Assembly (NCBI RefSeq): GCF_900109825.1
Contig: NZ_FOBL01000023.1
Location: 1 to 37,945, forward strand
DNA: 37,945 nt
Direction: 5' to 3'
From: Alkalibacterium putridalgicola
GTDB taxonomy: Bacteria > Bacillota > Bacilli > Lactobacillales > Carnobacteriaceae_A
Below, one piece after another: positions 8,224 through 26,309 of this stretch (position 1 is the first letter of the stretch; every line of letters starts with the position of its first letter). The position numbers and the translations under genes are program-made. Under the pieces are notes generated by a model. That model was given only the letters and a program-made list of their open reading frames with translations, was not told the DNA's origin and did not search any database.

Positions 8224-8353
8224 ACATATCATTCACTATACTTTTACCTATTGATCTATTAGAACACAACTGAAAATATCGGAGGCTAAAAAATATCCCT
8301 CTATAACTTTTTCATGCTAGAATAAAGATAAGAAATTTTTGGAGGATGATAGT

Positions 8354-8790: not shown

Positions 8791-8796
8791 TGTGAA

Positions 8797-8827
8797 AAAC
8801 CCATTACTTAGGGTACGATTCTCCGCA
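8797..8827. repeat. Degenerate SCC-type att-like site 1 (outer left end)
   Basis: CATTACTTAGGGTACGATTC followed by TCCGCAT. It aligns base for base, with about six differences, to the rlmH 3' end at 26280-26309; preceded by AACC like the other copies. Interpreted as the outermost left attachment site of the island. Confidence 0.55.
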
Positions 8828-8919
8828 TTGTGTTTAAATGAGGCTTTGAACAGCACTGAATTAGTCACACGGAACGTAATTAAACATAATATATCTATTC
8901 TTAATTCTTTAAAATTTAC

Positions 8920-9765
8920 TTATTTGAAGCTTTCAATAATCTCATAAAACTCTTCTTTGCTCATATTCTTATACATTCTTTTTACAACTGTCCTTCTAAA
9001 TACTGTAACTCTTCTGTAAGACAGCTTACAAACCTTAACAGTTTCCCATCTATGCAGCATTCGGATTTTTTTATTTTTAGGTTCCTTAAACTTCATTATA
9101 ATAAATAATTCTTGATATTTTGAGTAAAGAGCATAACTATACGATATTGGAATGAAGAGTAACGCTAAAACTATCGGAATAGAAAAAGTTATTAATAAAT
9201 CTATACTCCCCATATCAGTATAATTAGCAAATGCATTCTTCATTGTAAGTACTAAAACTGTAAGACCAATAAAAGTAATAGCAATTGATGTTATTTTTTT
9301 TATTATTGAATATTCTTCTTTTAAACCTGCTACAGTATCTAACAAAACTAAAAAAGTTATACTAGGGACTAGTATCAGTTCAATAATGATATGAAAAGTA
9401 AATGTACTTAATAAAAATTCTAGGATTACGATAAATTTTAAGTTACTTTTTAAGATATTTGCAAAATAATGATCATCATTTTTAATTATAATGGCTCCAA
9501 AGCACATTGGAATTCCACTAAAAACTATCCAAAAAATAACTTCTTTTAAATATTTCCAATTCCAGAATGAATATTGAGAGGCTACTATTATCCAAAAGGA
9601 GGAATAGAATATTATAATAACTACCAGAGTGATTATTTGCTTGTTAACAGAAATTTTTAATAATTTTAAAGCTGAACTCCTTATTTTGGGTATTAGAAAC
9701 ACGAAAACACAAAGTATGATTAACCAAATTATACTTGCTACTTCTCGACTTGAAAACAAGTTCAT
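8920..9765 (-). CDS. Multi-pass membrane protein of unknown function
   Basis: A 281-residue, AT-rich gene product that I do not recognise. It has an N-terminal hydrophobic helix (about 10-30), further segments near 40-60, 75-97, 107-140, 157-180 and 190-215, so five to seven membrane spans, then a basic cytoplasmic tail of about 65 residues rich in Lys/Arg (VCKLSYRRVTVFRRTVVKR) ending in an acidic helix. GGAGGGGA precedes the ATG by about 10 bases. It is the only gene between two att-like sites, which suggests it was brought in as cargo of a small SCC-like segment. A membrane effector or immunity role is possible but unsupported. Confidence 0.7.
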   Translation of the reverse strand: MNLFSSREVASIIWLIILCVFVFLIPKIRSSALKLLKISVNKQIITLVVIIIFYSSFWIIVASQYSFWNWKYLKEVIFWIVFSGIPMCFGAIIIKNDDHYFANILKSNLKFIVILEFLLSTFTFHIIIELILVPSITFLVLLDTVAGLKEEYSIIKKITSIAITFIGLTVLVLTMKNAFANYTDMGSIDLLITFSIPIVLALLFIPISYSYALYSKYQELFIIMKFKEPKNKKIRMLHRWETVKVCKLSYRRVTVFRRTVVKRMYKNMSKEEFYEIIESFK

Positions 9766-9881
9766 AATTAATGCTTCCCCTCCCCATTAAAACTTCATTT
9801 ATATTAATAATACTAATACTTCTAAACTATTAGTATTTAATAATAATGAATTGCAGTAGAATATTATTTAAACTTTTAAAT

Positions 9882-9914
9882 AACCCCATCTACTTAGAAT
9901 ACGGTTCTGCGTAT
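9882..9914. repeat. Degenerate SCC-type att-like site 2
   Basis: AACCCCATCTACTTAGAATA, then CGGTTCTGCGTAT. It shares ATACGGTTC and the flanking CC-CAT with the rlmH site. The inner ATACG...CGTAT forms a short dyad, as at site 3. The rest of the 313-base gap (9766-10078) holds AT-rich sequence, CAATGCGGTTTTTTT at 9931-9945 (recalling the SCC end TGATGCGGTTT) and a terminator. Confidence 0.6.
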
Positions 9915-10040
9915 CACTAACCAATGCGGTTTTTTTATATCATCTATTACGTTACTGATATCCTATCACGAATAGATGCATTATAGTAAAGGGTATCCGT
10001 ATTCCTTTATTAACTAGATTAATAAGCTATATTGTACTAG

Positions 10041-10070
10041 AAAAGCCAACTTAGAAAAGCTGGCTTTTTT
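10041..10070. terminator. Terminator of the ImmA/IrrE operon
   Basis: AAAAGCCA (10041-10048) pairs with TGGCTTTT (10061-10068) and lies 10 bases after the minus-strand stop codon. A longer T-run exists on the plus strand, so it may act in both directions. Confidence 0.6.
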
Positions 10071-10078
10071 GTACTACT

Positions 10079-11275
10079 TTACTGTAATTTAGATTTTGAG
10101 TTATAGTTGTCCTTTATAGACAAGACTACACCACTCTCCCTATTGTCCATGAAAAACTGCTTTGGTAAATCGGTTACTTGAGACAAAAATTCTAGATTGA
10201 GATATAGATTATATTTCTCAGCTAGTTCGTCCCTTATCTCAGCACCGGTCCTAACATTATTATCATCTAATAATTTCATCGCTTGTCTTATTGCAACCGG
10301 CTTATTCACCTTAGTTTCTTTGTCAAATGGTTCTAATTTTCTATAGCCTTTATAGCTCATGTGTTTAAATAAGCTTTGTTTTTCTATACTGGTAATTAAA
10401 CCTAGTTGGTAACTTCTCATAATCATACTTGAAACAGAGACATTCCACCTTTTTTTAAGAATTAAAAAACTTTCAAAGTGTGTACCTGTATTTTCAACAT
10501 CTTTAGTGAATCTTTCAGCTGGCATAAGCAGGCAAGAAGCAAAATTATTTGCATCTTGTTCCATGAGTTTGTACTCGTCTTTTTCTAGTTCCTGTGGATC
10601 CATACCCTCATGTAGAATCCAGTGACCTATCTCATGTGCTATACTGAACTGCTGTCTGAAGAATGTACCTTCTGAGGGTATTGAAATCACAAAATAGTTA
10701 TTATCTCCTATTGAGTATCTACTACTGAATGCATCTACTTTCTCAGAAAATCCATTATTGTTTATCACTGTTATTCCTAATAGTTCTGCAAATTCAACCA
10801 TATTCTCAATTGGTTGATCGTTATAGTCAAGTAATTCTCTTACATGTTGTGCTATTTTTTCAATATCATTTAATGTCAAATTGCTGCTTTGTAAATCTAT
10901 ACTTTCCGTAATGCTATCAGTATTTTTTAAATCTGGAAAATCCACATATTGATTTAGATACTCTTTAATGATTAATGCATACTTTAACCAGTATGTTGCA
11001 GGTTCTTTTTCCTTCTGAGTTGATGTAAGATATGATCTAAAATAAAGACCATTTGAAGCTATACTGCTATTATCTTCTGTCATGAAGAACTCTGTGGGAA
11101 ATTTAAGTAAGTTACTTATTTTAAATAGTGTCTCTTTAGATGGTTGACTATTTAAATTCTCATATTTGGACACCATTTGTTTAGAGACTTCTAACTCTTT
11201 AGAAAGAGCTGTTATGGTATATTGATTAAATAGTCTAGCCTCTTTTAGCCTCTTCCCATTAAAAATCCTTTGCAT
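10079..11275 (-). CDS. XRE-type HTH and ImmA/IrrE metallopeptidase fusion
   Basis: A 398-residue protein. Residues 5-65 form a Cro/CI-type helix-turn-helix (LKEARLFNQYTITALSKELEVSKQMVSKYEN). Residues about 150-260 form an ImmA/IrrE zinc peptidase with HEIGH at 214-218 and the third ligand in EQDANNFASCLLMP near 239. In phages and ICEs such proteases cleave repressors; standalone XRE-ImmA fusions are also found as antitoxin-like partners of diverse toxins. The gene follows the 225-residue gene by 10 bases, with GAGGTG before the ATG, so the two form a bicistron on an att-flanked segment. Either repressor-protease control of island genes or a toxin-antitoxin/defence pair is possible. Confidence 0.85.
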   Translation of the reverse strand: MQRIFNGKRLKEARLFNQYTITALSKELEVSKQMVSKYENLNSQPSKETLFKISNLLKFPTEFFMTEDNSSIASNGLYFRSYLTSTQKEKEPATYWLKYALIIKEYLNQYVDFPDLKNTDSITESIDLQSSNLTLNDIEKIAQHVRELLDYNDQPIENMVEFAELLGITVINNNGFSEKVDAFSSRYSIGDNNYFVISIPSEGTFFRQQFSIAHEIGHWILHEGMDPQELEKDEYKLMEQDANNFASCLLMPAERFTKDVENTGTHFESFLILKKRWNVSVSSMIMRSYQLGLITSIEKQSLFKHMSYKGYRKLEPFDKETKVNKPVAIRQAMKLLDDNNVRTGAEIRDELAEKYNLYLNLEFLSQVTDLPKQFFMDNRESGVVLSIKDNYNSKSKLQ

Positions 11276-11285
11276 TTCCTACACC

Positions 11286-11963
11286 TCAATTATTTTTTAA
11301 AGATACAATCTGTTTTTCTTGTTTCTTCAATTTATCTACTGTTGTACTTTCTGTAGAGTCATTTTTTACTTTATCAGTTGTATCAACTTCAAAGGTAGAA
11401 TCTATTAGATCTGAATAATTTTCAAACTCTATTAAATCATAATTAGAAGTAAAACGATACATGCTAAATTGCTCTTGACCGTATGTATCTGAAAAAGTAT
11501 AAACATACGTTTTTTTTGCAGTAATTTCGTAGTCATTCATCATCTTTATAAATAGTTCTTCAGTTAACCCAACTTCCGAGCTATCTCCTAAGTCCAGTGA
11601 GGTTTGCAGTGCCTCTTCTTTGTTGAGAACAGATAATATAGACATATAGTGTGTTGGACTTTTTTCCTTTAGTACCTTTTGGAGGTTTTTTTCAGACAAA
11701 AACAACGATATTTCTTCATTTTTCTCGTCAACAAGCGCCACTAATTCCCACAAACTTCCCCTGCTAATCGTTACAAAATCCATTCCGTTCCTAATAGCAA
11801 CATTCCTTATTTTTGTGTACCTCACATCCCAATTATAGACAGGCCTAGAGTTCACTGTAGCTGGATTACCAGCGGAATCTATTGCATATGCCAATTGCTC
11901 TTTACTATCCTGATCTTTGACCGATAAGATATTGGCTAATTCTTTTAAGATTTTTTCTTCCAT
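11286..11963 (-). CDS. Hypothetical protein paired with XRE-ImmA/IrrE gene
   Basis: A 225-residue soluble protein without a motif I can name with certainty. The N-terminal helix is followed by an alternating beta/alpha region (VYNWDVRYTKIRNVAIRNG..., WELVALVDEKNEEISLFLSEKNL) and a low-complexity, charged tail (about 190-225) with repeated KLKKQEKQ. It resembles in layout the partner proteins found with XRE-ImmA proteases (possibly DUF5986-type; not verified). The start is the ATG after AAAGGAGGT (6-base spacing); an in-frame TTG one codon earlier is less likely. It is the first gene of the bicistron and has its own promoter, so if the pair is a toxin-antitoxin unit this would be the candidate toxin. 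Confidence 0.65.
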   Translation of the reverse strand: MEEKILKELANILSVKDQDSKEQLAYAIDSAGNPATVNSRPVYNWDVRYTKIRNVAIRNGMDFVTISRGSLWELVALVDEKNEEISLFLSEKNLQKVLKEKSPTHYMSILSVLNKEEALQTSLDLGDSSEVGLTEELFIKMMNDYEITAKKTYVYTFSDTYGQEQFSMYRFTSNYDLIEFENYSDLIDSTFEVDTTDKVKNDSTESTTVDKLKKQEKQIVSLKNN

Positions 11964-11992
11964 CAAAATACCTCCTTTTGTAGTTACATATT

Positions 11993-12020
11993 ATATTAGA
12001 CTATTTTTGTATTTTGTCAA
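11993..12020 (-). promoter_or_regulatory. Promoter of the XRE-ImmA bicistron
   Basis: On the minus strand TTGACA (12020-12015), 16-base spacer, TAATAT (11998-11993), 30 bases before the start codon. Just upstream, AACCG-type repeats (TAACCGTTTCCGTTAAACCG, 12036-12055, and TTAACCGG near 12119) could be regulator sites. Confidence 0.7.
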
Positions 12021-12147
12021 CCATAATAGTAAAATAACCGTTTCCGTTAAACCGATTTCCTACTAAACATTTACTCTCACCTCGTTTATAGTTTAGCAAG
12101 TAATTACAGTTAAATAATTAACCGGTTTTCCTTCAAAGATAGAAAAG

Positions 12148-12180
12148 GGCCAACAGCGTTTGAATCCGCTGTTGACTCTT
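12148..12180. terminator. Stem-loop in the segment B/C spacer
   Basis: CAACAGCG (12151-12158) pairs with CGCTGTTG (12167-12174) with an 8-base loop, flanked by AAAAGGG on the left and CTCTTTATT on the right; terminator-like in either direction. The rest of 12021-12225 shows no gene. Confidence 0.5.
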
Positions 12181-12225
12181 TATTATTGTATTCATTTAGT
12201 TTATCTACGACTGACTGACTGATTG

Positions 12226-12258
12226 AACCTCATTCATTTATGATACGGTTCTCCGTAT
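12226..12258. repeat. SCC-type att site 3 (left end of the 14-kb segment)
   Basis: Contains TCATTTATGATACGGTTC (12234-12251), identical over 18 bases to the 3' end of rlmH at 26283-26300, followed by TCCGTAT. GATACGG/CCGTATC forms a perfect 7-bp dyad around TTCT. On the minus strand it reads GAACCGTATCATAAATGAAT followed by GAGGTT, close to staphylococcal SCC attachment sequences (TATCATAA...TGAGGTT). Same orientation as the rlmH copy, as expected for attL/attR. Confidence 0.8.
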
Positions 12259-12367
12259 CATTTTACGGTGATAAATTTTATCAGGGTGTAAAATTAAGTA
12301 AGATGCTATACTTTCGAATTTAACATCTAACTATTAGTAAAAGAAACTATTCGCATACATTTAATTT

Positions 12368-14590
12368 CTATTTTAAATCATTAATTAATGTCTCTAGCAC
12401 GCTATCGTGAATAGTAACTTCAGCATCTTGATCGAAATAATATGAAACCATTCTTATTCCATTACGATCCAATCTATTATAATAATAACAAGCATTTACT
12501 TGGGTTTTTGGACTTGGCATGAGCTTAATAAATGGCAGTAATTTAAGTGGGTCATAACCATCTTCCTCAAGTAGATATAAGTTCTCAATATCTAGTCCAT
12601 TTGAAACTTCAATACTCTTTTCAACAAATGTATTTCTAGTTCCTTTTACTAACCTACAATTACAATTATAGAAACCAGAACTAAAATGTCCATTTCCTGG
12701 TTGAATTAGCTGGTATCCTTCGTATATATCACCAATTACTTTTCTTAATGCATTTAGCTCTCTTTCTAGCAACATCAGTCTATTCTTGACATCTCCCTCA
12801 CTTTCAACTCCTCCGTGACCTTTCCAATCATTTCTGTAGCTTCTAGTTCTATCTAATATTTTATATACTTCCTTGGATGATATTATTTCAATAAAACTTT
12901 TTCTTTTTTGTTGAAATAATCGTAAACATTGATCAGGGTATTTGTCCATTAATTTTCTAAGCTTCTTAGCTAGCTTTTCTCCAATATGAACCCATGTTCC
13001 AAATGTTGCATTGGCTAATCTATCGGCATCTATTTCATAAATATACTCTTTATCTATAATTTCACCATTTTTTGCATAGGCACTCATCATTAATACAACT
13101 TGAAATTGAGCGAATGCTTCAAAAAAATGTAGCAAAAATTCTTTCTTTGAGAATACATCAGTTTTAGCATAGTATTTATACAGAATAGATGCTAGAGGAA
13201 AAGGTAATGTTTCTATCCATTCTGTAACTCCATCTTCTCTGTTTAATTTTTCTAATCGTTTATTTAAATGCTCATGGCTATTGGGATAGTTCCATGCTTT
13301 GCTTTCAATACTGAATAATTCATTTCTTAATTCATCTACCTTTGATTGAATATCTAATATTTCTTGTTGTATACTCTTTTCAGGAAGATATAAATTAGCC
13401 GATTCTAAAGTACTTTTATTAATTTTTCCTACGTAGGCTCCACTCGTTAAGCTATCTCTAAGAATCAGACCTACTTCTGTATTGAACCACTTTGCCAGAT
13501 AAATAGAGTTTATACTATCTTTTAGTACAATTTGAAAATAATTATGAGTTTTATTTTTCATTTCACTTTGATCATTGACTGCATCAGAACGACCAATATT
13601 AGGCAAATATACTGAATTAGCATGTTCTTTAAATTGACCAATTTCTTTTTTTACGCTATTTATTTGTAATGCAATATCAGTAATTGGCACTTCTATTAAA
13701 TTAGCTTTTTTAACAAACCTCTCTATTTCTAACTCTTTTTCCAACTTTCCATAAGATGAGAAGGACTTATGATCTACTAGCTTTCCATTTGTTAGAACTT
13801 TACTATCTTTTCTATTATTCCATCCTGATATTACTTGTTCTAAATTCTCATTTTTTAATTCACTAATAAATAAGTCCCCGTACTCTTTTTTACTCAATAC
13901 TATTAAATATGTTCCTATATTTGTGTTGACATGAGTTCCTGGAGGCAAATAAAAAGCTGCATCTAAAAAAATACCCTTGTCTTCTAATATTGGCAAAATG
14001 GAGTTCCTCAATTTTCTATTAAAAAAATTATGATTAACAACAAAAAACATTCGACCGGATTCTCTTAATTTATAGGACGCTTTCAATATTAATAAATGAG
14101 CTAGTTCTGCTCGAATTTTTTTGTTATTTACTGTTGTTTCAGCTTTTATCCCCATTGGAGGAAAGCTACATATCAAATCAAACTTAAATTCCTTCATTTT
14201 TTCTAATTCAATTAAAGGATCACCAATAATGCTTTGATATTTATTATCTTTCAACATCATGCCTGTTATAGTAGCCCATTTATCATTATTACTAATCAAT
14301 ACACTACTATCAGTATTTATTGATACTTCCCCTAACAACTCCCCATATATATTCCATGGTATTAGCACATCACTCTTATTTGTAATTACTTTTTTCATAA
14401 ATTCAGAAACTATTTTAGGTGTGATTCCATGACTATATTTATTATGCTTTTTAAGTATTTCGCGAATATCGTCATAGCTTAAATCAATATGTTTTTCGAG
14501 CCCACGTTGAATCATTTCATCTTGATTATTAATTTTTTTACCCGAATAATAATCAGTACTCTCATATAATTGCTTTAATTTATTATTCAT
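12368..14590 (-). CDS. Degenerate N6-methyltransferase/TRD protein with HEPN-like C-terminal motif
   Basis: A 740-residue protein. Residues about 50-240 follow the HsdM-type N6-adenine methyltransferase plan (HGITPKIVSEFM, then a Rossmann core and KFDLICSFPPMG), but motif I reads IPWNIYGELLG instead of DPxCGxG and motif IV reads SFPPM at 142-146 instead of NPP(F/Y), so catalysis looks lost. Residues about 300-440 resemble an HsdS target-recognition domain with its coiled coil (YLPEKSIQQEILDIQSKVDEL). The region 460-640 is helical with R586-NDWKG-H592, an R-x5-H motif as in HEPN ribonucleases. The last 120 residues are unassigned. AGGAGGT precedes the ATG. It lies downstream of an AbiJ-like HEPN gene and a type I R-M operon, suggesting a recognition-plus-effector defence protein; that role is inference. 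Confidence 0.65.
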   Translation of the reverse strand: MNNKLKQLYESTDYYSGKKINNQDEMIQRGLEKHIDLSYDDIREILKKHNKYSHGITPKIVSEFMKKVITNKSDVLIPWNIYGELLGEVSINTDSSVLISNNDKWATITGMMLKDNKYQSIIGDPLIELEKMKEFKFDLICSFPPMGIKAETTVNNKKIRAELAHLLILKASYKLRESGRMFFVVNHNFFNRKLRNSILPILEDKGIFLDAAFYLPPGTHVNTNIGTYLIVLSKKEYGDLFISELKNENLEQVISGWNNRKDSKVLTNGKLVDHKSFSSYGKLEKELEIERFVKKANLIEVPITDIALQINSVKKEIGQFKEHANSVYLPNIGRSDAVNDQSEMKNKTHNYFQIVLKDSINSIYLAKWFNTEVGLILRDSLTSGAYVGKINKSTLESANLYLPEKSIQQEILDIQSKVDELRNELFSIESKAWNYPNSHEHLNKRLEKLNREDGVTEWIETLPFPLASILYKYYAKTDVFSKKEFLLHFFEAFAQFQVVLMMSAYAKNGEIIDKEYIYEIDADRLANATFGTWVHIGEKLAKKLRKLMDKYPDQCLRLFQQKRKSFIEIISSKEVYKILDRTRSYRNDWKGHGGVESEGDVKNRLMLLERELNALRKVIGDIYEGYQLIQPGNGHFSSGFYNCNCRLVKGTRNTFVEKSIEVSNGLDIENLYLLEEDGYDPLKLLPFIKLMPSPKTQVNACYYYNRLDRNGIRMVSYYFDQDAEVTIHDSVLETLINDLK

Positions 14591-14706
14591 TTTTTACCTC
14601 CTATATGAATTTAATTAAAATACCATTTCTTCATGACTAATAGTTAATTAGTTAACAAATTTCATCTGAGTTAATAATCAGATTTTATACTATCGGTTCA
14701 CTCATG

Positions 14707-15150
14707 TTATTCTTCTTTTTCTAGTGCTTCTTTTATTTTTTGGCCATTATCTTTTAATTTCAGTAATTCTGGTTTAGTTTCTAACTTTTCACTTACCTTA
14801 TTTTTTCTCATAAAAACACCTACATCAACTTGTGAGAACCCCTGAGATATTAAATGCCTTTTTAACACTTTATAACAATACTGAATTTTTTCATATCGAA
14901 GCCACATTGCAGCATCATCCATACTTATATGCCAATACTTGTTCAAGAGCTCTATGATTTTTCTGTCTTCGACACCTGCATCATATAAACTAACTATATT
15001 CCTTTGCAGACCAGCATCTAAACCTTGAATATGTGCATCTAGTTCTCTCTCACTCATTACTTCTCTAACGCTTTCTATCACAATATTAGACAGATCTCTT
15101 CCATAGCTCTTAAAACGTTCTATACTTGAAGTGTCATCATTATTATTCAT
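14707..15150 (-). CDS. Hypothetical helical protein between two HEPN-type genes
   Basis: A 147-residue, largely alpha-helical, soluble protein; I do not recognise a family. The middle (IVSLYDAGVEDRKIIELLNKYWHISMDDAAMWLRYEK, residues about 52-90) could form a helix-turn-helix-like bundle, and the C-terminus is lysine/glutamate rich. AAAGGAGA lies 6 bases before the ATG. It starts 31 bases after the AbiJ-like gene and ends 116 bases before the methyltransferase-like gene, so it is probably part of the same transcript. A small adaptor, antitoxin or regulator for the neighbouring HEPN proteins is possible. Confidence 0.65.
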   Translation of the reverse strand: MNNNDDTSSIERFKSYGRDLSNIVIESVREVMSERELDAHIQGLDAGLQRNIVSLYDAGVEDRKIIELLNKYWHISMDDAAMWLRYEKIQYCYKVLKRHLISQGFSQVDVGVFMRKNKVSEKLETKPELLKLKDNGQKIKEALEKEE

Positions 15151-15181
15151 TTTAATCTCCTTTTCGAATGTTTAGTCATTT

Positions 15182-16123
15182 TTAGAATACCGAATGTTTT
15201 TCTTGATACGTCTCCCATAAAAAATATACTATTGTCGTAGATGTTCCTACTGCCAGTCGAGCATATCTAGGTGGTAAAGAAACAAACGTTTTTGCTTTGC
15301 CATGCCCATCACCGAAAGTATTCCTTAATTCTGCCATATTCTGTGGAATTGCATTTAAATTTCCTAATATTTTGGCTGCAATCTTCCCAGACTCTTTTTC
15401 TTTTTCCTGTGTATTAGCTGTTAGTCCCAACTCTTTCATTACTAATTTCAAAAGTGGGGTAAACTCCATTTTTCTATCATATTCACTACCTAGTTCGTCT
15501 AATATTGTTTTTGCACATGATTCCATTAATTCCTTAGCTTTGCCAATAGCTACATTCGGATTTGACTCAATATTTTCTAACATTATAGAAACCTGAGAAT
15601 CGATATATTCAGAACTAAACTTTACTTTTAATTCTTCAGTGTAATCTTCTATCAATCCTCCATTTGTGATTGAAACAATCTCATAAACAGGTCTACCGCT
15701 AAATTCTTTGGTTACTCTCAATTCCATTTTGTCAAATTTTAATATTTCATTGATCTGATTTAAATAGCTTCTCCATTCCGATACCTCATCCCTAACTAAC
15801 GGGTGAAATATGTTATTAATGAACTTTACAAATAAATCATTATCATTAGTTAGATTTAATATCTCATTATCAAAGACCCAATCGAGCTCCCAATCATCAT
15901 TATTTATAGTGTGTTGTCTTATGTCCTGTTTCATATTGCTAAATCTAGAATCAGATGAAGGCAACTCATCTAGATTAACTATTCTGTTAAGAAAAGCTAT
16001 TTCACTATATTTACCAAAATACTGAAATTCCCGCTCATATAAACCAACTCTTAATAAATCAAAAATATCTCTTTTCGATAAATCAGAGATTATTAGTTTT
16101 CCTTCTTGTGTTCCATTCAACAC
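15182..16123 (-). CDS. AbiJ-like abortive infection protein (Abi_C/HEPN C-terminus)
   Basis: A 313-residue protein. The N-terminal half (GKYSEIAFLNRIVNLDELPSSDSR, the DIRQHTINNDDW and LFVKFINNIFHPLVRDE segments) matches the AbiJ N-terminal domain type that precedes HEPN domains. The C-terminal half has the Abi_C signature: NPNVAIGKAKELMESCAKTIL, then LRNTFGDGHG with R267-x6-H274, the HEPN ribonuclease R-x4-6-H motif, and ARLAVGTSTTIVYFLWET. Homologues are abortive-infection effectors that are thought to cut RNA on phage infection. The start is GTG with AAGGAGG 6 bases upstream. It follows hsdR by about 90 bases, separated by a terminator, so expression depends on readthrough or a weak own promoter. 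Confidence 0.8.
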   Translation of the reverse strand: MLNGTQEGKLIISDLSKRDIFDLLRVGLYEREFQYFGKYSEIAFLNRIVNLDELPSSDSRFSNMKQDIRQHTINNDDWELDWVFDNEILNLTNDNDLFVKFINNIFHPLVRDEVSEWRSYLNQINEILKFDKMELRVTKEFSGRPVYEIVSITNGGLIEDYTEELKVKFSSEYIDSQVSIMLENIESNPNVAIGKAKELMESCAKTILDELGSEYDRKMEFTPLLKLVMKELGLTANTQEKEKESGKIAAKILGNLNAIPQNMAELRNTFGDGHGKAKTFVSLPPRYARLAVGTSTTIVYFLWETYQEKHSVF

Positions 16124-16162
16124 ATCAAGCCTCCTTAATTGACAAGCTAATCATATTCATCT

Positions 16163-16204
16163 TAAAAAATCCCCATACCCGTACTTATAGCAGGATATGG
16201 AGAT
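16163..16204 (-). terminator. Terminator after hsdR
   Basis: On the minus strand ATCTCCATATCC (16204-16193) pairs with GGGTATGGGGAT (16180-16169), a 12-bp stem with G-U pairs, followed by six Ts. It separates the type I R-M operon from the AbiJ-like gene set. Confidence 0.85.
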
Positions 16205-16215
16205 TTACTTTTTTA

Positions 16216-19341: not shown

Positions 19342-19379
19342 TGTTTCACCTCCTATATGAGATTGAATATCAATGTACT

Positions 19380-20621
19380 CTATTCTGTTTCAACTGCTTC
19401 TTCTATTCGGATTTCTCCTGACATGAGTTTGGGTAGAAGTGTATCGCGAAGTTCTTCTAATTTTTTATTTTGAACACCTAAATTAATTATTTTCGATACA
19501 ATCGGATTCATAACTTTGTCCATCTCACCTAAGGTTACGTCATCAGGTATAAGAACTTTTGCCTCTTTTAAATGAGATCTTTTGATGTGCCCCATAGTTG
19601 TGGCTCTATCTCTAGCGATTGCAACAAATTGATTCAGGAAAAACTTTGTCCAATAATAATAAAACCACTTATTGTATTTATTTGAAGATACTTTAAATAA
19701 ATGTTGATTGAGTCCTGCAGTACCACCTGTCCATACTTCAACAAGTAGAGAACCAGACCAAGAGAAGATAATATCACCGTTTTCTATCAGTACTTCTTTT
19801 GGTATATCGACAGCACATCTGTCACTACTCGAATCCGTTTTATTAGCTCTGAGTTCTTTAATCTTTAATACGGGTAAAGAATCTTGTTTAGTTTCAGGTC
19901 GAAATTTTTGCATTGCTATACCATTTTTGAACGTAGCAATATTCTCTAGACTGTTTACTTGCCATCCTTTTGGGAGTCTGCCCAACTCTGAGTCTACAAA
20001 TTCCTCGTCTTTACGCGCTTCAAAATCTATAAACCACGACTTAAAAATCGCTTGCGCTTGTTCTTCAAGGATAGTAATCATAGTGTTGTTTTTCTTTACT
20101 TTATTCTCCAAAGAATCTAATATTTCTACTATTCTTTTTTGTTCCCCCATTGATGGTAGGAGAATCTTCATAGAACTAAACATTTTTTGGTTAATATTTG
20201 GACGAGTACTACCTGTGGCTATGGAGTCTACCCAATTTTTGTAGTCAGACGAAATCGTAAAATACCTCATGAATCTCGGATCGACAATTATCGGATTTAA
20301 TTTATATCTTATTAAAAAACCTGCCACTATTAAAGGTTCTACAGTTTCCTCGTATACATAACTTCTACCTGCACTTGCCCCAGTTCTAGCAAAAACTATA
20401 TCATTTTTTTCAAGTAAATATTTCTCATATTGGTTTGCATTTACACTAACCGATACTTTACCATCATTTTTTAAAAAACCATCATCAGTTATATCAGTTA
20501 TTCGAAGATACCTTGGTAAGTCTGATTGATATGGAATAGATGATTCAGCAATTCCATACTGACCTTTTCTCAAACAAATTTCTTCAAGAGTATATTCTCT
20601 CCAATTTTCATTATTATACAT
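19380..20621 (-). CDS. hsdS: Type I restriction-modification specificity subunit HsdS
   Basis: About 413 residues with two target-recognition domains separated by conserved coiled-coil helices: first repeat ends in LLPSMGEQKRIVEILDSLENKVKK (core shown in part), second in LIPDDVTLGEMDKVMNPIVSKI. Each TRD reads one half of a bipartite DNA site. The second repeat begins with RLPKGWQVNSLENIA. The frame opens with a GTG five codons upstream, but ATG at this position overlaps the hsdM stop (ATGTATAA), has AGGTGGG about 10 bases upstream, and fits translational coupling. TRD sequences are the most variable part of the operon, so specificity cannot be read. It ends 38 bases before hsdR. Confidence 0.94.
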   Translation of the reverse strand: MYNNENWREYTLEEICLRKGQYGIAESSIPYQSDLPRYLRITDITDDGFLKNDGKVSVSVNANQYEKYLLEKNDIVFARTGASAGRSYVYEETVEPLIVAGFLIRYKLNPIIVDPRFMRYFTISSDYKNWVDSIATGSTRPNINQKMFSSMKILLPSMGEQKRIVEILDSLENKVKKNNTMITILEEQAQAIFKSWFIDFEARKDEEFVDSELGRLPKGWQVNSLENIATFKNGIAMQKFRPETKQDSLPVLKIKELRANKTDSSSDRCAVDIPKEVLIENGDIIFSWSGSLLVEVWTGGTAGLNQHLFKVSSNKYNKWFYYYWTKFFLNQFVAIARDRATTMGHIKRSHLKEAKVLIPDDVTLGEMDKVMNPIVSKIINLGVQNKKLEELRDTLLPKLMSGEIRIEEAVETE

Positions 20622-22116
20622 TAAATCCAATCCCACCTAACTGTTCTCTTATCTCCTCTTCTAATTTGTGAGATTCTTTAAGTAGGTTCCCTAGTTCTGC
20701 TGTTAAACTTTCCATCTTTTCTTCGAAAGGTATTCCATCATCTTCAATTTCTTCTGAACCAACATAACGTCCAGGAGTTAAAACAAAATTATTTTGTTCA
20801 ATTTCTTTTATATCTGCTTCGTGAGCATAACCAGGTTTTTCTACGTCTTCATCCCTTACAAAATCATGGTATACTTTAGAAATAGCATCTATATCATCAA
20901 TAGATAGCTCTCTATGAGCTCGGGTTACCTTATACCCAAGACTACGTGCATCGATAAAAAGTGTTTTACTTTTACGTTTTTTATTTTTATTGATAATCCA
21001 AAGTGATACAGGGATAGGCGTAGAGTAAAAAAGCTGTCCCGGCATTGAAATAACCGCTTCTACTAAATCATTTTTGATAATATTTGCGCGGATGTCCCCT
21101 TCTCTACCAGTTGATGATAAAGACCCATTCGCAAGAACAAGCCCTAATTTACCATTCGGAGCCAAATGATAAATCATATGCTGCATCCAAGCAAAGTTGG
21201 CATTTCCTTCTGGTGGCGTGCCATATTGCCAACGCACATCTTCAGCTAGTTTATCTCCCCCCCAGTCACTCATGTTAAATGGTGGATTGGCTAGTATATA
21301 GTCTGCACGCATGCTTTGATGTTGATTATTGTAGAACGTATCCGCAGCTCCTTGACCCAAATCACCTTCTATACCATGGATCGCTAGATTCATTTGTGCC
21401 AGCTTCCATGTATTGGCATTAGCTTCTTGTCCGTAGATTGACAACTCATTTATACGACCTTGATGGCGTTCCACAAATTCTGCTGATTGGACGAACATTC
21501 CACCTGCACCACAGCATGGGTCATAGACTCTTCCTTCATAAGGTTCAAGTATTTCTACAAGTGTCCGAACAATACTTGATGGCGTGTAGAATTCTCCAGC
21601 ATTTTTACCTTCTAAACTTGCAAATTGAGCAATCGCATATTCATACGTTCGACCTAAAATATCTTTCGAATTACCATGTTCCTTTAATTTTAAATTGTTG
21701 AATAAATCAACTACTTCTCCTAACCGACGTTTGTCAAGTTCGGGACGAGCATAGTTTTTAGGAAGAATACCACGTAAGCGATCATTTTCTTCTTCGATTA
21801 AAATCATTGCCTGGTCAATAACTTGTCCTATTTCAGGTTCAGTCGCATGTTTGGCTATGTAGCCCCATCGTGCTTTTTCAGGTACAAAGAAGATATTTTC
21901 AGCGAGGTATTCATCTCGATCTTCCTCAAAGCCATCGCCTTCTTCAAGAAGTCCATTGTAACGCTCCTCAAAACTGTCTGAAATATATTTTAAGAAAATC
22001 AAACCTAGAACGATATTTTTGTACTCTGCAGCATCAATGTTTCCTCTTAACTTGTCAGCTGCTTTAAAAATTTCTTTTTCAAATCCTAAATCTGCACTAT
22101 TTACTTTTTCTGCCAA
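20614..22116 (-). CDS. hsdM: Type I restriction-modification methyltransferase subunit HsdM
   Basis: A 500-residue N6-adenine methyltransferase. The N-terminal HsdM_N region (FKAADKLRGNIDAAEYKNIVLGLIFLKYIS) is followed by AGEFYTPSSIVRTLVEI, motif I DPCCGAGGMF at 199-208 and motif IV NPPF at 277-280; all catalytic residues are present. It methylates the site that HsdS recognises and protects host DNA. The start is TTG preceded by AGGAGA at 9 bases; low-efficiency start may limit expression. First gene of the hsdM-hsdS-hsdR operon, divergent from radC. Confidence 0.96.
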   Translation of the reverse strand: MAEKVNSADLGFEKEIFKAADKLRGNIDAAEYKNIVLGLIFLKYISDSFEERYNGLLEEGDGFEEDRDEYLAENIFFVPEKARWGYIAKHATEPEIGQVIDQAMILIEEENDRLRGILPKNYARPELDKRRLGEVVDLFNNLKLKEHGNSKDILGRTYEYAIAQFASLEGKNAGEFYTPSSIVRTLVEILEPYEGRVYDPCCGAGGMFVQSAEFVERHQGRINELSIYGQEANANTWKLAQMNLAIHGIEGDLGQGAADTFYNNQHQSMRADYILANPPFNMSDWGGDKLAEDVRWQYGTPPEGNANFAWMQHMIYHLAPNGKLGLVLANGSLSSTGREGDIRANIIKNDLVEAVISMPGQLFYSTPIPVSLWIINKNKKRKSKTLFIDARSLGYKVTRAHRELSIDDIDAISKVYHDFVRDEDVEKPGYAHEADIKEIEQNNFVLTPGRYVGSEEIEDDGIPFEEKMESLTAELGNLLKESHKLEEEIREQLGGIGFNV

Positions 22117-22148
22117 TGAAATCGCTCTCCTTCAAAATACTTATCATC

Positions 22149-22157
22149 ATTATAGCA
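22149..22157 (-). promoter_or_regulatory. Extended -10 promoter of the hsdMSR operon
   Basis: TGCTATAAT on the minus strand, 33 bases before the hsdM start, with a weak TTAAAT 17 bases upstream. It lies in a 270-base divergent region shared with the radC leader. Confidence 0.6.
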
Positions 22158-22308
22158 CAGGCTATCCTGGTATTTAATTCATTCTCTAGTTTTATTATAT
22201 TTAAGCATAAGTAAAATCGTTATAATCAATTTCTCAAACATATATTATAACTTTGATTTCACAAATATAGTAAGGAGGAATATCATACTTAAACAGTCAG
22301 GTTTTCAT

Positions 22309-22342
22309 CCCCCATCGACAAATGTCGATGGGGGTATTTTTT
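22309..22342 (+). terminator. Terminator-like attenuator in the radC leader
   Basis: A perfect 12-bp GC-rich inverted repeat (CCCCCATCGACA at 22309-22320 with 22323-22334) followed by TATTTTTT, placed 45 bases before the radC start. A strong AAGGAGGA (22272-22279) stands upstream, followed by an open frame from ATA 22285 to TAA 22366 that runs through the hairpin but lacks a normal start codon. Such a layout allows leader-translation or anti-termination control of the downstream genes. Confidence 0.8.
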
Positions 22343-22386
22343 CGCCAATGCTTACTCGCGGCACTTAAAACTTAAGGAGGATAAAC

Positions 22387-22836
22387 ATGGATTACATTCC
22401 ATTCATTAAACTAAAGCAAGAAGTCGTTCATGAAACATCAATCGAAAGTAAAAAGCTCACATCAGCAATTACTGTTGCCAATTACGCTCAAGAACTTATT
22501 GGTAACTGTGACAGAGAGACGGTAATCGTGTTTGGTCTAGGTACAAAATCGGATATTAATTTTATTTCGACTGTGTCAGTTGGATCTTTAAATACTTCAA
22601 TCGTGCATCCTCGGGAGATATTTAAAGCAAGCATTGCTTCAAACTGCGCTCGCCTGATCATTGCTCATAATCATCCCTCTGGAGATATCAGTCCGTCAGA
22701 TGCTGATCATAACTTTACTCGTAGGATTTGCGAAGCCGGTGAACTGCTTGGTATAGAAGTATTAGATCATGTCATTGTATCTCCTACTGAGTATTATTCT
22801 TTCGCAGAATACGGACACATCAAAAGGGAGGCATAG
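22387..22836 (+). CDS. radC: RadC-like JAB/MPN domain protein
   Basis: A 149-residue protein consisting only of the MPN+ (JAMM) domain of the RadC family; the N-terminal HhH part of chromosomal RadC is absent. The metal-binding signature is complete: H94-N-H96-P-S-G-D followed by D105 in SPSDAD, with the upstream Glu in HPREIF region. Short RadC copies are typical of mobile islands including SCC elements; biochemical function is unknown, despite the historic DNA-repair name. AAGGAGG lies 7 bases before the ATG. First gene of a four-gene unit, with only 3 bases to the next start. Confidence 0.9.
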   Translation: MDYIPFIKLKQEVVHETSIESKKLTSAITVANYAQELIGNCDRETVIVFGLGTKSDINFISTVSVGSLNTSIVHPREIFKASIASNCARLIIAHNHPSGDISPSDADHNFTRRICEAGELLGIEVLDHVIVSPTEYYSFAEYGHIKREA

Positions 22837-22839
22837 CTT

Positions 22840-23145
22840 ATGGACTATTCTGAACTTGCTCTCGACATGCTGAGCAAACACTTAGGAGAGCCAATAACTC
22901 TAGAAGACGCTGGTTACGAATCATATAGCTTTGAAGTCGTTGAACTAGATATGTCAATCATTCCGATGAGTTATCAATCATACCTTTCAAGGTTTCAAGA
23001 CGTCATGACTCATTTGTATGTATATAAAGAGCTTGTAGTATATATACTATATCCATTAACCGATTCAGCTTCAGATCCGAAATTGGTTGGCTTGCTTTAC
23101 GAGGATAAACTGCTTGACTACCGCATTATTACAGGAGGTATTTAA
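22840..23145 (+). CDS. SAUGI-like uracil-DNA glycosylase inhibitor (DUF950 type)
   Basis: A 101-residue acidic protein. Its layout follows SAUGI of staphylococcal SCCmec: a central helix after IIPxxY (SIIPMSYQSYLSRFQDVMTH), a YxYKELxxYILYP strand, then KLVGLLYED and a terminal DYRIITGG, corresponding to LPDQYxxL, YPFILYY, QLIAIGYID and QRYLLTGG. This is from memory of the family, not an alignment search. SAUGI mimics DNA and blocks uracil-DNA glycosylase. AGGGAGG overlaps the end of radC and the start is 3 bases after the radC stop, so translation is coupled. Confidence 0.65.
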   Translation: MDYSELALDMLSKHLGEPITLEDAGYESYSFEVVELDMSIIPMSYQSYLSRFQDVMTHLYVYKELVVYILYPLTDSASDPKLVGLLYEDKLLDYRIITGGI

Positions 23146-23226
23146 ATGTTCACACCTATTCTCATTCTAGAAATTATTGCATTGGTTGCTACTTCTGCTG
23201 CTAGAGAATTAAAAAAGAAAAAATAA
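23146..23226 (+). CDS. 26-residue hydrophobic micro-protein
   Basis: Starts at the base after the upstream stop codon, with AGGAGG 7 bases before its ATG. The sequence begins MFTPILILEIIALVATSAA and ends in RELKKKK: one membrane helix with a basic tail facing the cytoplasm by the positive-inside rule. Tight spacing and strong ribosome-binding site argue that it is translated. Function unknown. Confidence 0.65.
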   Translation: MFTPILILEIIALVATSAARELKKKK

Positions 23227-23245
23227 TCTAAGGAGTCTGATATAT

Positions 23246-23515
23246 ATGGTAAAAGAATTATCTGCAAGCATGACAACAAAAGTTATCGAAGAAGATTCAG
23301 GCACACATCGTTACGTATTAGAACGGTCGTGGAATAAAAAAGGAAAAGCCAAAATGGCCACTGTTATCACACTGTATCCTAGTACGAGTGAGCTTATATT
23401 GACCGATACCACGACAATGCTAATTACGAACAACATTTACAAACTTGGTTATGACGGCTTTTTTTCTGTAAACCTATATTCTAAAGTGAACCTTCCCGTT
23501 TCCCCGTCATATTAA
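23246..23515 (+). CDS. DUF1643 family protein, C-terminally truncated
   Basis: An 89-residue protein that matches the N-terminal half of DUF1643 proteins: GTHRYVLERSWNKKGKAKMATVITLYPSTSE in parts (HRYxLxRSW, then xxPST), followed by NNIYKLGYDGFFSVNLYSKV corresponding to the NxxxxxGYGGxxVVNLF block. Family members are usually about 150-170 residues, so the second half is missing; the tail NLPVSPSY runs straight into the terminator. DUF1643 genes accompany ccr genes in SCC elements; function unknown. A related 3' end and terminator recur at 26101-26166, so a deletion or insertion event beside this gene is likely. AAGGAG precedes the ATG. Confidence 0.7.
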   Translation: MVKELSASMTTKVIEEDSGTHRYVLERSWNKKGKAKMATVITLYPSTSELILTDTTTMLITNNIYKLGYDGFFSVNLYSKVNLPVSPSY

Positions 23516-23560
23516 AGTAATGAACAGCATACTGAGAAATAAGTATGCTGTTCAAATTTT
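23492..23560 (+). terminator. Terminator of the radC unit and first copy of a flanking repeat
   Basis: GAACAGCATACT (23522-23533) pairs perfectly with AGTATGCTGTTC (23542-23553), followed by AAATTTTTATTTTT. The terminator and 30 bases before it are repeated, imperfectly, at 26101-26166. Confidence 0.85.
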
Positions 23561-23654
23561 TATTTTTAAATAGGTTAAATTTCTAAATATAAGATCATGT
23601 AAGATCAGTTATTGATAGTACGAAAAATACACGTGCATTCTTTTTTATTTCAGG

Positions 23655-25919
23655 TTAAGCTGCTACTAGCCCATCGTAATGGATCATAGCCACTTCCATT
23701 ATTTCTTCTTCATCTGGTAGTTCTCGTTTTAAGTATACTTGTTCTACAAAGTTGAGAAAATGTTCATGGATATAGTCACGGGAATTATTTGAAGCATACA
23801 TAGTTTTTAATAAATTATCAAACTTTTTATTTAAGAATGTTTTTTCTAAGATATCTTTGAATTCTTCTTCAGACAGCGAACTCATCATAACTGTTTCGAT
23901 GAACTCTTCTTTTGCGACTCTAATCATCTTAACTGCGTCATCTTCTATAAAGTTGTCCATTAGTTTCCTAGCTGATATCGCTCCAATAGATCCGCCTACA
24001 ACCGTTCCTATAACGTTACCCACTACTGGAACGACAGAACCTACTGCGTTACCAATCACTGCTCCTGAGGCCATTCCTGCGCCAGTCGATAGCGTATTTT
24101 TCACTAATTGCTCCATTGACAATCGTCCTCGTAAGCAATCTGTCAGATCTGGGCCTACTGTGATAGCAACTGTAATAATTCCCATTGCTCCTTTCGTAAC
24201 AGCTTGTGTTTTAGCTTTGTTTGTCATTTGTTTTTTAACAAATGTTTTTGCGAATAAGTTTCCTGCTGCCTTACCCATCTTACTTCCTGCAAACTGTGAT
24301 GATACCATATATATGACTCCACCAGTCAATGTTGGTTTTGCAGCTGAAATAACTGAATTTTTCAATGCTGTTTTCTTATCTGTCCCTTGCCAGACACTAT
24401 TACAATAAACCCATAAGCCTGAAACTACACCAAACGGTAATGCAGCAGTTGCTCCGGTTAAAAAATCTCCTCCTGCTGACCAAATCATTTTTTCTCCTAA
24501 AGTGACATCTCTATATACTGTTTTATTATTCTTATCTTTAACCGCAATTTTAGATTTTCGATCAAAAATTGATTTAGTAGCAATTCGAGAGTGTTCGTAT
24601 GTTAGAGCTCCTTTTTTAACATAATTTTCTGCGTTATGTGGATTATTTTCGTTTGGTACTTGACCTAATTCTATTCTTTCCGCCATTTTCTTCAAAGCAG
24701 TTTCATATTGGTCTTTAGGAACTTCAATTTTCATCATAGATCCATCGGTATTTAAGTATTTAGCACCTATACCCTTATCATCAAAGCATTGTCCTATAGA
24801 TTTTCCTGCTGTTTTACAATACTTTGTCTGAATATTCTCTCCGTTGACTACTCGATCTGCACCGTATTTCTCATGACTTGATCCTAACTTTTCTGTACTT
24901 TTAAAACGAAGCTTGTCGTAAACATCTCCATACTGTTCTCCGACATGACCATGTCCTTGACCCTTACCAAATCGATCGTTTATCTGATTCTGATTTAACT
25001 CAGACCTTATAGAACCTAGACTTCCTGCCACAGATGCATAAGTGGTCTGTTTGTTACCTATGTCTACATTTTTATTTCTTTTTGCCTTCTCAACTGCTAG
25101 ATCCACATCATTTATTCTTCTATAATACTCTTCAACATCTGTATCAATTATTTCCAATTCTTCTTCAGTTACCCCATTATTAAATATGACATCCTCTACA
25201 TGGGCTGTCCAACCAGACTCAATAGCCAACTGAAACACACTACTAATAAATTGTAATTCTTCAGGATTAAGTTTTATAGTATTCTTAGTACGATCCGCAT
25301 AGTAAACTGTAAGGGAATCAATTGTAGTTTTATACCGGTAGACTTTGGAAAAAGGCAAATAGGATTTTTGATTGCTATACTCTTTTTTTCTACCCTCATG
25401 CGGGACTTCTATCTGTTTATTAACAATAACTCCTAATGAAGTAACTAAAAAACCATATTCTTGAAAAGACATTTCATTGTCAGCCGGACTGGCATCAAAA
25501 AAGATGTTGGATACGTATTCCATATCAATGTCTGCATCAGTTTCTGAGCTAAAATATTTTGCTCGATTGTATGGAATGTCTTCATGATATCGGACGTTAC
25601 CTATATCACATTTTTCCAATAATAAATTCGAAAATTCGAAAGATGAAATAAACGGGAAGTCAGTGTTTTCCCATTCTTCTATGTATTTACCTTCTGTATC
25701 CCTTTTTAAAAAGAAGTAAACTATCGCTACAATAATTATGAATGTGAATAGGGAACCCAGACCCTCGTACATCAATAGGGAATATACAAATTCTAAAATA
25801 CCAGTTATGAAATTTATGCCTATGATACCTAGAAAAAAGGAACCTATAGTCTGACGCCAACTAAAATTGTATTTCTCTCTCACAATCCAAGCAATTACAC
25901 TTGCAATAATAATCTCCAA
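23655..25919 (-). CDS. Large membrane protein with candidate QxK nuclease motif and glycine-zipper region
   Basis: A 754-residue protein, likely TTG start with AAGGAGGT 8 bases upstream. Two or three hydrophobic segments lie within residues 1-72. After a soluble part, GHGHVGEQYGDVYDKL (E328) and GADRVVNGENIQTKY (D355, Q364-x-K366) give an E...D...QxK set as in Mrr/HJC-type PD-(D/E)xK nucleases; the DRVVNGxxIQTKY stretch is conserved in a widespread uncharacterised family I recall from many bacteria. Hydrophobic and Gly-rich stretches follow at 480-545 and 605-650 (VVGNVIGTVVGGSIGAISA), typical of membrane insertion, then an acidic helical tail. I infer a membrane-associated effector, perhaps defence; no tested function is known to me. 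It is the gene nearest to rlmH in the island. Confidence 0.65.
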   Translation of the reverse strand: MEIIIASVIAWIVREKYNFSWRQTIGSFFLGIIGINFITGILEFVYSLLMYEGLGSLFTFIIIVAIVYFFLKRDTEGKYIEEWENTDFPFISSFEFSNLLLEKCDIGNVRYHEDIPYNRAKYFSSETDADIDMEYVSNIFFDASPADNEMSFQEYGFLVTSLGVIVNKQIEVPHEGRKKEYSNQKSYLPFSKVYRYKTTIDSLTVYYADRTKNTIKLNPEELQFISSVFQLAIESGWTAHVEDVIFNNGVTEEELEIIDTDVEEYYRRINDVDLAVEKAKRNKNVDIGNKQTTYASVAGSLGSIRSELNQNQINDRFGKGQGHGHVGEQYGDVYDKLRFKSTEKLGSSHEKYGADRVVNGENIQTKYCKTAGKSIGQCFDDKGIGAKYLNTDGSMMKIEVPKDQYETALKKMAERIELGQVPNENNPHNAENYVKKGALTYEHSRIATKSIFDRKSKIAVKDKNNKTVYRDVTLGEKMIWSAGGDFLTGATAALPFGVVSGLWVYCNSVWQGTDKKTALKNSVISAAKPTLTGGVIYMVSSQFAGSKMGKAAGNLFAKTFVKKQMTNKAKTQAVTKGAMGIITVAITVGPDLTDCLRGRLSMEQLVKNTLSTGAGMASGAVIGNAVGSVVPVVGNVIGTVVGGSIGAISARKLMDNFIEDDAVKMIRVAKEEFIETVMMSSLSEEEFKDILEKTFLNKKFDNLLKTMYASNNSRDYIHEHFLNFVEQVYLKRELPDEEEIMEVAMIHYDGLVAA

Positions 25920-26100
25920 ATAAAAAACCTCCTTTTATTTATACAGTCAACCCACATTTGAAATCGCTTACTAATTATTATTGATTGTCTGATATATATA
26001 TTTATAATAATCTCTGTTCTCTTAATTGTAAATGAAAATCATGTAAACTTGTGATTTTTATTGTGAATTTCTACTTTTAGTAAAGTTTGATATTATTCGT

Positions 26101-26166
26101 TTTACCCGATTCCCCGATGTATTAAGACAAAGAACAGCATACTTAAACTATATAAGCATGCTGTTC
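26101..26166 (+). repeat. Second, decayed copy of the DUF1643-end/terminator repeat
   Basis: TTTACCCGATTCCCCGATGT, then ATTAAGACAAAGAACAGCAT, aligns to 23492-23553 over its whole length, including a weakened stem (26132-26143 with 26155-26166). The same codon pattern L-P-x-S-P-x-Y-stop appears in both. The copies flank the large membrane protein gene. The rest of 25920-26282 is AT-rich with no gene. Confidence 0.7.
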
Positions 26167-26254
26167 TTCTAGTTAAAGAAACTAGTGAAACTAACTTTCT
26201 GTCCTAACTTAATAAACTTTAGATATAGAGATAAAGCAATGATAAACATGGACC

Positions 26255-26309
26255 GAACCGTACAGACTATAAATTCTTATCATCATTTATGATACGGTTC
26301 ATTCCGCAT
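26255..26309. repeat. SCC-type att site 4 at the rlmH 3' end, with inverted copy
   Basis: The last codons of rlmH on the minus strand read CGGAATGAACCGTATCATAA, then ATGA. TCATTTATGATACGGTTC (26283-26300) is the direct repeat of 12234-12251. Just inside the island, GAACCGTA (26255-26262) and TATAAAT form an incomplete inverted copy, as seen at SCC ends. I read this as the right attachment site. Confidence 0.8.

Follow-up and report, generated by a model that had tools for sequence, protein, structure and literature searches.

The 3' end of rlmH in Alkalibacterium putridalgicola is occupied by a genomic island that very probably represents a tandem array of cassettes of the staphylococcal cassette chromosome (SCC) and Enterococcus cassette chromosome (ECC) kind, most likely three in number, the rlmH-proximal one (cassette I) deriving from a complete SCC-like element that is also found in the Marinilactibacillus group and having since lost its ccr module by deletion. 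Alkalibacterium is a lactic acid bacterium, and rlmH is also where the methicillin-resistance cassettes of staphylococci reside. The window, the whole stretch of DNA analysed, comprises 37,945 nucleotides. An initial annotation of this DNA had proposed an SCC-like island at a non-staphylococcal rlmH, and the insertion site, the att core, the inverted repeats, an empty site in a relative and a homologous cassette encoding cch, ccrA and ccrB agree in supporting it. The features that define the site are as follows:

26283-26762, minus strand: rlmH, the insertion gene, whose last codons hold the att core, attR of the array (NCBIfam RlmH, 9.1e-77)
26283-26300, minus strand: att copy 1, at the rlmH end, an exact repeat with the minus-strand text GAACCGTATCATAAATGA and an imperfect inverted repeat (26250-26262 / 26293-26305, 85%)
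12222-12260, minus strand: att copy 2, at the far end of cassette I and its junction with cassette II, containing the exact 18-mer (matrix score 41.6)
9878-9916, minus strand: att copy 3, at the junction of cassettes II and III, core TATTCTAA (matrix score 38.5)
8792-8830, minus strand: att copy 4, altered, adjoining the terminator of the gloA-like gene, core TACCCTAA (matrix score 17.8)
8339-8734, plus strand: gloA-like gene, the first chromosomal gene beyond the island, found past rlmH in several relatives

The 18-base rlmH end TCATTTATGATACGGTTC is exact at both 12234-12251 and 26283-26300, in identical orientation and 14 kb apart, as first annotated. With up to 3 mismatches allowed, 0.08 matches are expected in shuffled sequence, and two matches arose in 1 of 100 shuffles. 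The repeat is not common genome-wide: across the whole genome (2,600,402 bases in 72 contigs, 99.41% complete), these two are the only exact copies. The TATCATAA core is present in direct repeats at both ends of cassette I, and its minus-strand match to the core given for SCCmec and ECC (excerpt of PMC6222049) likewise held. Att copy 2 additionally shows a perfect 9-bp inverted repeat (12240-12248 / 12253-12261, 100%). Despite the insertion at its 3' end, rlmH is intact, encoding 159 residues with a full-length model match; it is the single rlmH match in the genome, and its closest matches among named genomes are from Alkalibacterium (97% to A. subtropicum). A position matrix built from the left ends of 7 other Lactobacillales cassettes, with the sister element of the Marinilactibacillus-group genome G025 included and the window excluded, revealed that the island holds four att-like copies rather than two, against a best background score of 13.6 in 20 first-order Markov shuffles. 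The score of 41.6 for copy 2 is not independent, as G025, which carries the same cassette, is among the matrix sources. The GC content is 0.34 and 0.30 in the cassettes versus 0.44-0.46 in the chromosome. Promoter-like sites in the island are at chance level (82 vs 79.5), terminator-like sites number 12 vs 7.0, and Rfam at the gathering threshold gave 0 matches across the island and 8 ccrB loci. Att-like sites scoring 22-34 were also seen in Alkalibacterium sp. 20 (L143:5885, 8893, 12179) and in a Marinilactibacillus-group genome (L158:3401, 4996), 3-12 kb past rlmH in the rlmH-first orientation, with host genes (dbpA and degV among them) in between; these are possible secondary insertion sites.

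Comparison with relatives identified the empty site that the initial annotation had anticipated. In G024, from another genus of the family, rlmH is joined to the gloA-like gene over about 110 bp, with one att copy between them. The rlmH ends of the congeners G022-G024 and G026 are of the type CCATAAGTAA/G. The G025 rlmH end is instead TCATAAATGATGATAAG, as in the window, and the congener-type CCATAAGTAAATGAGG stands at the far end of its cassette, which reads CCATAAGTAAATGAGGTTT. These ends are the expected result of a crossover within GGAGAACCGTA that displaced the host half to the far end; we infer the pre-insertion state of G025 from its congeners. If the recombinases acted as in staphylococci, which is probable, CcrA/CcrB-type serine recombinases would join the circular element to rlmH via recombination within the shared GAACCGTA-TCATAA, and recombination there would leave rlmH intact. 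A second cross-genus right end is provided by Alkalibacterium thalassium and Atopococcus tabaci, which have about 120 bp after rlmH in common (79% identity over the whole matched stretch, which is mostly rlmH).

A near-identical and complete copy of cassette I is present in another genus. G025 and G024 fall in one genus group. The cassette is inserted at the rlmH of G025, with rlmH at one side of it on the contig and gloA, dbpA and fabV at the other. Over the stretch used for comparison (L155), DNA identity to the window is 94.0% across 12226-19442 and 92.5% across 20614-23508, compared with 66-84% for the flanking chromosomal matches. The cassette proteins common to both are 91-100% identical, HsdS (24%) excepted. 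The G025 cassette additionally encodes cch, ccrA and ccrB (NCBIfam Cch1 1.1e-90, CcrA 2e-63, CcrB 1.1e-120), its gene order being RadC, a 101-residue protein gene, DUF1643, two unknown open reading frames (ORFs), cch, ccrA and ccrB. The window retains RadC, the 101-residue gene and the first 88 residues of DUF1643, followed by a deletion seam:

22387-22836, plus strand: short RadC-like protein whose gene opens the core operon (Pfam RadC, 5e-38), in the same position in several other cassettes
22840-23145, plus strand: 101-residue core-operon protein, 97% to G025, without a family match; its homologues adjoin DUF1643 in other cassettes
23246-23515, plus strand: DUF1643 gene, 89 residues, C-terminal half missing (Pfam DUF1643 positions 1-59 of 134)
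23495-23562, minus strand: second hairpin and CGGG doublet unit, the seam left by loss of the ccr module; 88% to L155:1738-1805, immediately past ccrB

In G025, DUF1643 is complete at 177 residues, and the window copy is 98.9% identical to it over 88 residues. At this truncated gene, the homology of the window to L155 jumps from 9138 to 1805, just beyond ccrB, and relative to G025 about 7.3 kb containing cch, ccrA and ccrB is missing. Both sides of the seam share GACGGGGAA (9 bp) exactly and agree at 13 of 14 bases over GACGGGGAANCGGG; the deletion ends at the 9-bp match, inside two CGGG doublets.

CcrB-like genes recur near rlmH elsewhere in the order. With the G025 CcrB as query and a threshold of 1e-60, matches were obtained in 19 of 395 Lactobacillales genomes; in 16 of them the gene shares a contig with rlmH and lies 1.2-25 kb downstream of it (G265 being counted relative to its shorter rlmH-like copy), and in three it is on other contigs. 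G265 possesses a pair of rlmH-like genes separated by 67 kb (C1:745437, 812387), the shorter match having a CcrB-like gene 8 kb downstream. Among the 18 ccrB regions read (G374 was left out), DUF1643 is upstream of ccrB in 15, and the order RadC, 101-residue gene, DUF1643, cch, ccrA, ccrB is complete in G025, G372, G316, G380 and G062. The other regions are without one or more of these six genes, and RadC and DUF1643 are swapped in G060 and G088. At the class level, 46 of 398 matched in the CcrB search. A CcrB tree of 48 rows (18/19 order-level, the broken G138 copy being omitted, 26/30 class-level and 4 outside) places 17 Lactobacillales rows together with 9 from family f17 in one 26-row group with support 99/99; G265 falls outside that group, among the class-level rows, and the outside rows carry a long-branch warning. 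The G025 CcrB occupies a deep branch of its own with G372 and G316. Family f17 is presumably Staphylococcus because one of its rows (L220) passes the NCBI SCCmet_CcrB cut-off of 900 bits, at 1132 bits, a cut-off that the G025 CcrB does not reach. Directly after ccrB, two family f3 cassettes (L192, L193) show an inverted repeat and then an att-like sequence, and L183, L184 and L185 by eye have in common about 220 bp of conserved G+C-rich sequence, without an Rfam match in L183 and L184.

Beyond cassette I, the matrix att copies split 8811-12233 into cassette II (about 9900-12233) and cassette III (about 8811-9890), which contain the following genes:

11286-11966, minus strand: DUF5986 protein, cassette II (DUF5986, 6.3e-21)
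10079-11275, minus strand: RmrA-type helix-turn-helix and IrrE-like protein, cassette II (PADLOC RmrA, 1.7e-113)
8920-9765, minus strand: 281-residue protein, cassette III, hydrophobic and probably membrane-bound, without a family match

Cassettes II and III are probably older than cassette I, because the core is altered in att copies 3 and 4. The same departure from the core would fit a different history, in which 8811-12233 represents not two mini-cassettes but a single decayed cassette or old chromosomal DNA, and copy 3 is also without the C said to be essential (Wang et al., as cited in the excerpt of PMC6222049). However, copies 3 and 4 score 38.5 and 17.8 against a shuffle maximum of 13.6, and the outer copy adjoins the gloA terminator, where an att-like sequence is also present in A. 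subtropicum (score 21.5) and discernible by eye in G026. A single decayed cassette or old chromosomal DNA is therefore a real but lesser possibility, and two further cassettes remain the preferred reading.

Several points weigh against the overall interpretation. The count of three cassettes rests on the matrix match, given the altered cores of att copies 3 and 4, and the DUF5986 gene was found in one of 27 family genomes, that of the window itself. The G025 proteins score far under the NCBI equivalog cut-offs (CcrA 215/700, CcrB 403.8/900 and Cch 305/700 bits), and a large serine recombinase near rlmH occurs in 1 of the 27 family genomes, G025 only. No ccr gene, by which SCC and ECC membership is defined, was found in the window copy or its genome, which also returned 0 matches to PF07508 (Recombinase) and 0 to PF00239 (Resolvase); among 14 control genomes, the same domain searches found PF07508 in 3 and PF00239 in 10. 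Serine recombinases of the ccrAB or ccrC type, which the initial annotation proposed to look for in the rest of the genome, were thus not found. In addition, an excision product cannot be seen in a single assembly. Because no ccr gene and no serine recombinase domain were found, the window copy is a recombinase-less derivative and not a complete SCC; it can probably no longer move unless a Ccr pair is supplied in trans.

These observations also bear on the alternatives for cassette I. A complete, currently mobile SCC-like element with its recombinase encoded elsewhere in the genome would draw on att copies 1 and 2, which are intact with their inverted repeats and make action in trans conceivable. 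The zero counts for PF07508 and PF00239 (no search was made for tyrosine recombinases) and an assembly of 72 contigs at 99.4% completeness, in which a missed gene is unlikely, make this very improbable. Still less credible is the opposite polarity, with the ccr-less copy as the older form and the G025 element having gained the ccr module: most of the cargo is common to both copies, as such a history would allow, but the window DUF1643 is cut where homology jumps from L155:9138 to L155:1805, and DUF1643 stands upstream of ccrB in 15/18 regions. Finally, an ordinary syntenic chromosome, its repeat due to chance or to a duplicated rlmH end, can be dismissed: rlmH ends are alike in many genomes, so that short look-alikes are expected there, but the 18-mer occurs only twice in the genome, the regions read past rlmH in relatives other than G025 are without these genes or show one weak match at most (AbiJ, 42%, in G022; several regions stop at a contig end), a near-identical copy exists in another genus, the GC content drops, and the G024 empty site and the G025 copy already refute it.

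Among known systems, SCC elements of pattern 1 (Cch, CcrAB) share with the island the site at the rlmH 3' end, the TATCATAA core, direct and inverted end repeats and conflict genes as cargo, as well as cch-ccrA-ccrB and DUF1643 in the G025 sister. Unlike them, the window copy is without ccr or cch, resides in another host family and has no drug-resistance family among its cargo matches, and the G025 recombinases fall far below the NCBI cut-offs for the staphylococcal proteins. The absence of ccr is the mark of a pseudo-SCC, and the window copy is att-bounded at rlmH and has no ccr. It is att-bounded and tandem like the pseudo-SCC and composite SCC islands in the excerpt of PMC10061031; it differs in having an identified complete sister in a second genus and a legible deletion seam. 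With ECC (excerpt of PMC6222049), the shared features are a Lactobacillales host, the rlmH site, CcrAB-type recombinases (in the G025 sister), multiple att sites in some elements and variable cargo. Unlike the complete ECC, defined there by ccrAB and att sites, the window copy is without ccrAB, and the G025 CcrB stands apart on its deep branch. The PolA-SSB primase SCC-like islands of other Bacillota (excerpt of PMC10061031) are also mostly downstream of rlmH, with a second end that matches the rlmH end, some tandem composites and restriction-modification (R-M) cargo; in contrast, G025 has a DUF927 Cch helicase, and no polymerase was recognised among the 8 G025 proteins scanned. The window copy is not classed here as an SCC, but it works, or worked, like one.

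The expectation that such an element would newly widen the range of the family to Lactobacillales did not stand, as the ECC is already published (excerpt of PMC6222049); SCC-like elements in further genera are listed in the excerpt of a 2023 paper (PMC10581047). A literature search found no cassette chromosome for Marinilactibacillus, and none for Carnobacteriaceae or Alkalibacterium among the matches listed. As far as these searches show, the family Carnobacteriaceae is what is new to the SCC/ECC range, Lactobacillales being already known. This places the SCC/ECC family in Carnobacteriaceae, away from its usual clinical hosts. The same cassette, complete in one genus and stripped of its recombinases in another, has been caught after cross-genus transfer and loss of mobility, and legibly documents how a mobile cassette turns into a fixed island of defence genes. 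It also suggests that cassettes at rlmH serve Lactobacillales generally as carriers of such genes.

Cassette I spans 12252-26282 and carries R-M, AbiJ-type, methylase-like, RadC and DUF1643 genes and a 754-residue protein gene. In addition to the core operon and seam given above, its features are:

26101-26199, minus strand: rlmH-proximal repeat unit, a hairpin then CGGGGAATCGGG, 81% to L155:1147-1245 (motif at 26105; arms 26130-26145 / 26153-26168)
23655-25919, minus strand: 754-residue protein gene in the slot between the two repeat units, no family match above cut-off
20614-22116, minus strand: HsdM, type I methyltransferase (PADLOC MTase_I, 2.9e-206), 91% to G025
19380-20636, minus strand: HsdS, specificity subunit (PADLOC Specificity_I, 6.8e-94), only 24% to G025
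16216-19341, minus strand: HsdR, type I restriction subunit (PADLOC REase_I, 4.2e-273)
15182-16123, minus strand: AbiJ-type abortive-infection protein (AbiJ_NTD3, 9.7e-41; Abi_C, 6e-19)
14707-15150, minus strand: 147-residue protein, 100% to G025 over 147 residues
12368-14590, minus strand: 740-residue protein, putative defence (Pfam N6_Mtase, 1.8e-5; Methylase_S, 6.4e-5), 99.6-100% to G025

The type I R-M, AbiJ, RadC and DUF1643 genes of the first annotation were recovered, the last in truncated form; its SAUGI-like label for the 101-residue ORF was rejected, with no match in Pfam, NCBIfam, PADLOC or PDB sequences and none in Pfam for six homologues, one of which is the G025 copy. Family scans of the window (Pfam, NCBIfam, PADLOC) gave no drug-resistance family among the matches. 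The R-M, AbiJ-type and methylase-like genes are probably kept as defence. HsdS is the outlier between the two genera: the window gene (19380-20636) and L155:12211-13185 are 24% identical within R-M operons that are otherwise 91-95% identical, a difference suggestive of specificity-gene exchange. Different genes also occupy the slot between the two hairpin-doublet units, encoding 754 residues in the window and 131 in G025. The 754-residue protein has no match in G025; a 66% homologue in G265 (L262), from another family, likewise lies between rlmH and the gloA-like gene. Beside rlmH in A. thalassium (L146, near 11860-12033) is a homologue of the 131-residue slot gene of G025, at 45% over 58 residues.

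The CGGG doublets at the seam recur beyond it. The period-8 doublet CGGGNNNNCGGG, possibly a new feature, has two copies in the window cassette (23495, 26105) and another in a chromosomal gene (5597), with three in the G025 stretch, presence in 10/18 ccrB regions and 2 in the stretches of six relatives (120 kb). The strict doublet is found within 400 bp after ccrB at 7/19 order-level and 6/30 class-level loci. Inverted pairs, defined as looser doublets 30-160 bp apart with a spacer of at least 65% AT, are present in 6/18 ccrB regions (L201, L202, L203, L206, L215, L218) and 7/9 f17 loci (L220-L226), with an AT-rich spacer of about 70-110 bp; 8 control stretches (160 kb) contained 0, and 20 shuffles of each yielded none. 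Taken together, these observations permit a tentative reading, which we regard as doubtful: the CGGG doublets beside ccr genes may be Cch helicase binding sites, the inverted pairs round a 65-90% AT spacer may form a replication origin of Cch-type cassettes common to the staphylococcal-type and Lactobacillales elements, and repeated copies may also serve as weak recombination seams. The doublet-to-doublet deletion in the window would then have taken out helicase and recombinases together, making an autonomous cassette a passenger, and the differing genes of the slot would lie between two such seams. If true, the replication of Cch-type cassettes would become testable through the shared doublets. 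In pattern 2 elements, AAGTG iterons mark a putative origin located between cch2 and ccrC (excerpt of PMC7581432); for pattern 1 elements, no described origin was found in the literature among the matches listed.

The inverted pair has no fixed place, which argues against an origin. It follows ccrB in only one genus (G360, G380 and G376); in G060 the pair separates cch from ccrA, in G265 (a loose pair) it immediately precedes ccrB, and in G334 it is upstream of cch. It is absent from 12/18 ccrB regions (G025, G372, G316 and G062 among them), from the window and from 2/9 f17 loci; G025 and the window have direct doublets only, which weakens the origin reading for this branch. Across 27 family genomes, the hairpin-side motif is confined to G000 (1) and G025 (2), and is therefore not a general chromosomal repeat. 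Self-comparison found repeat pairs in 13/17 other regions, G316 having doublets near rlmH and beside ccrB. A hairpin-doublet unit flanking a gene on both sides was seen only in G025 and the window; an integron-like arrangement, in which each gene is followed by a hairpin repeat, is a minor idea that these units bring to mind.

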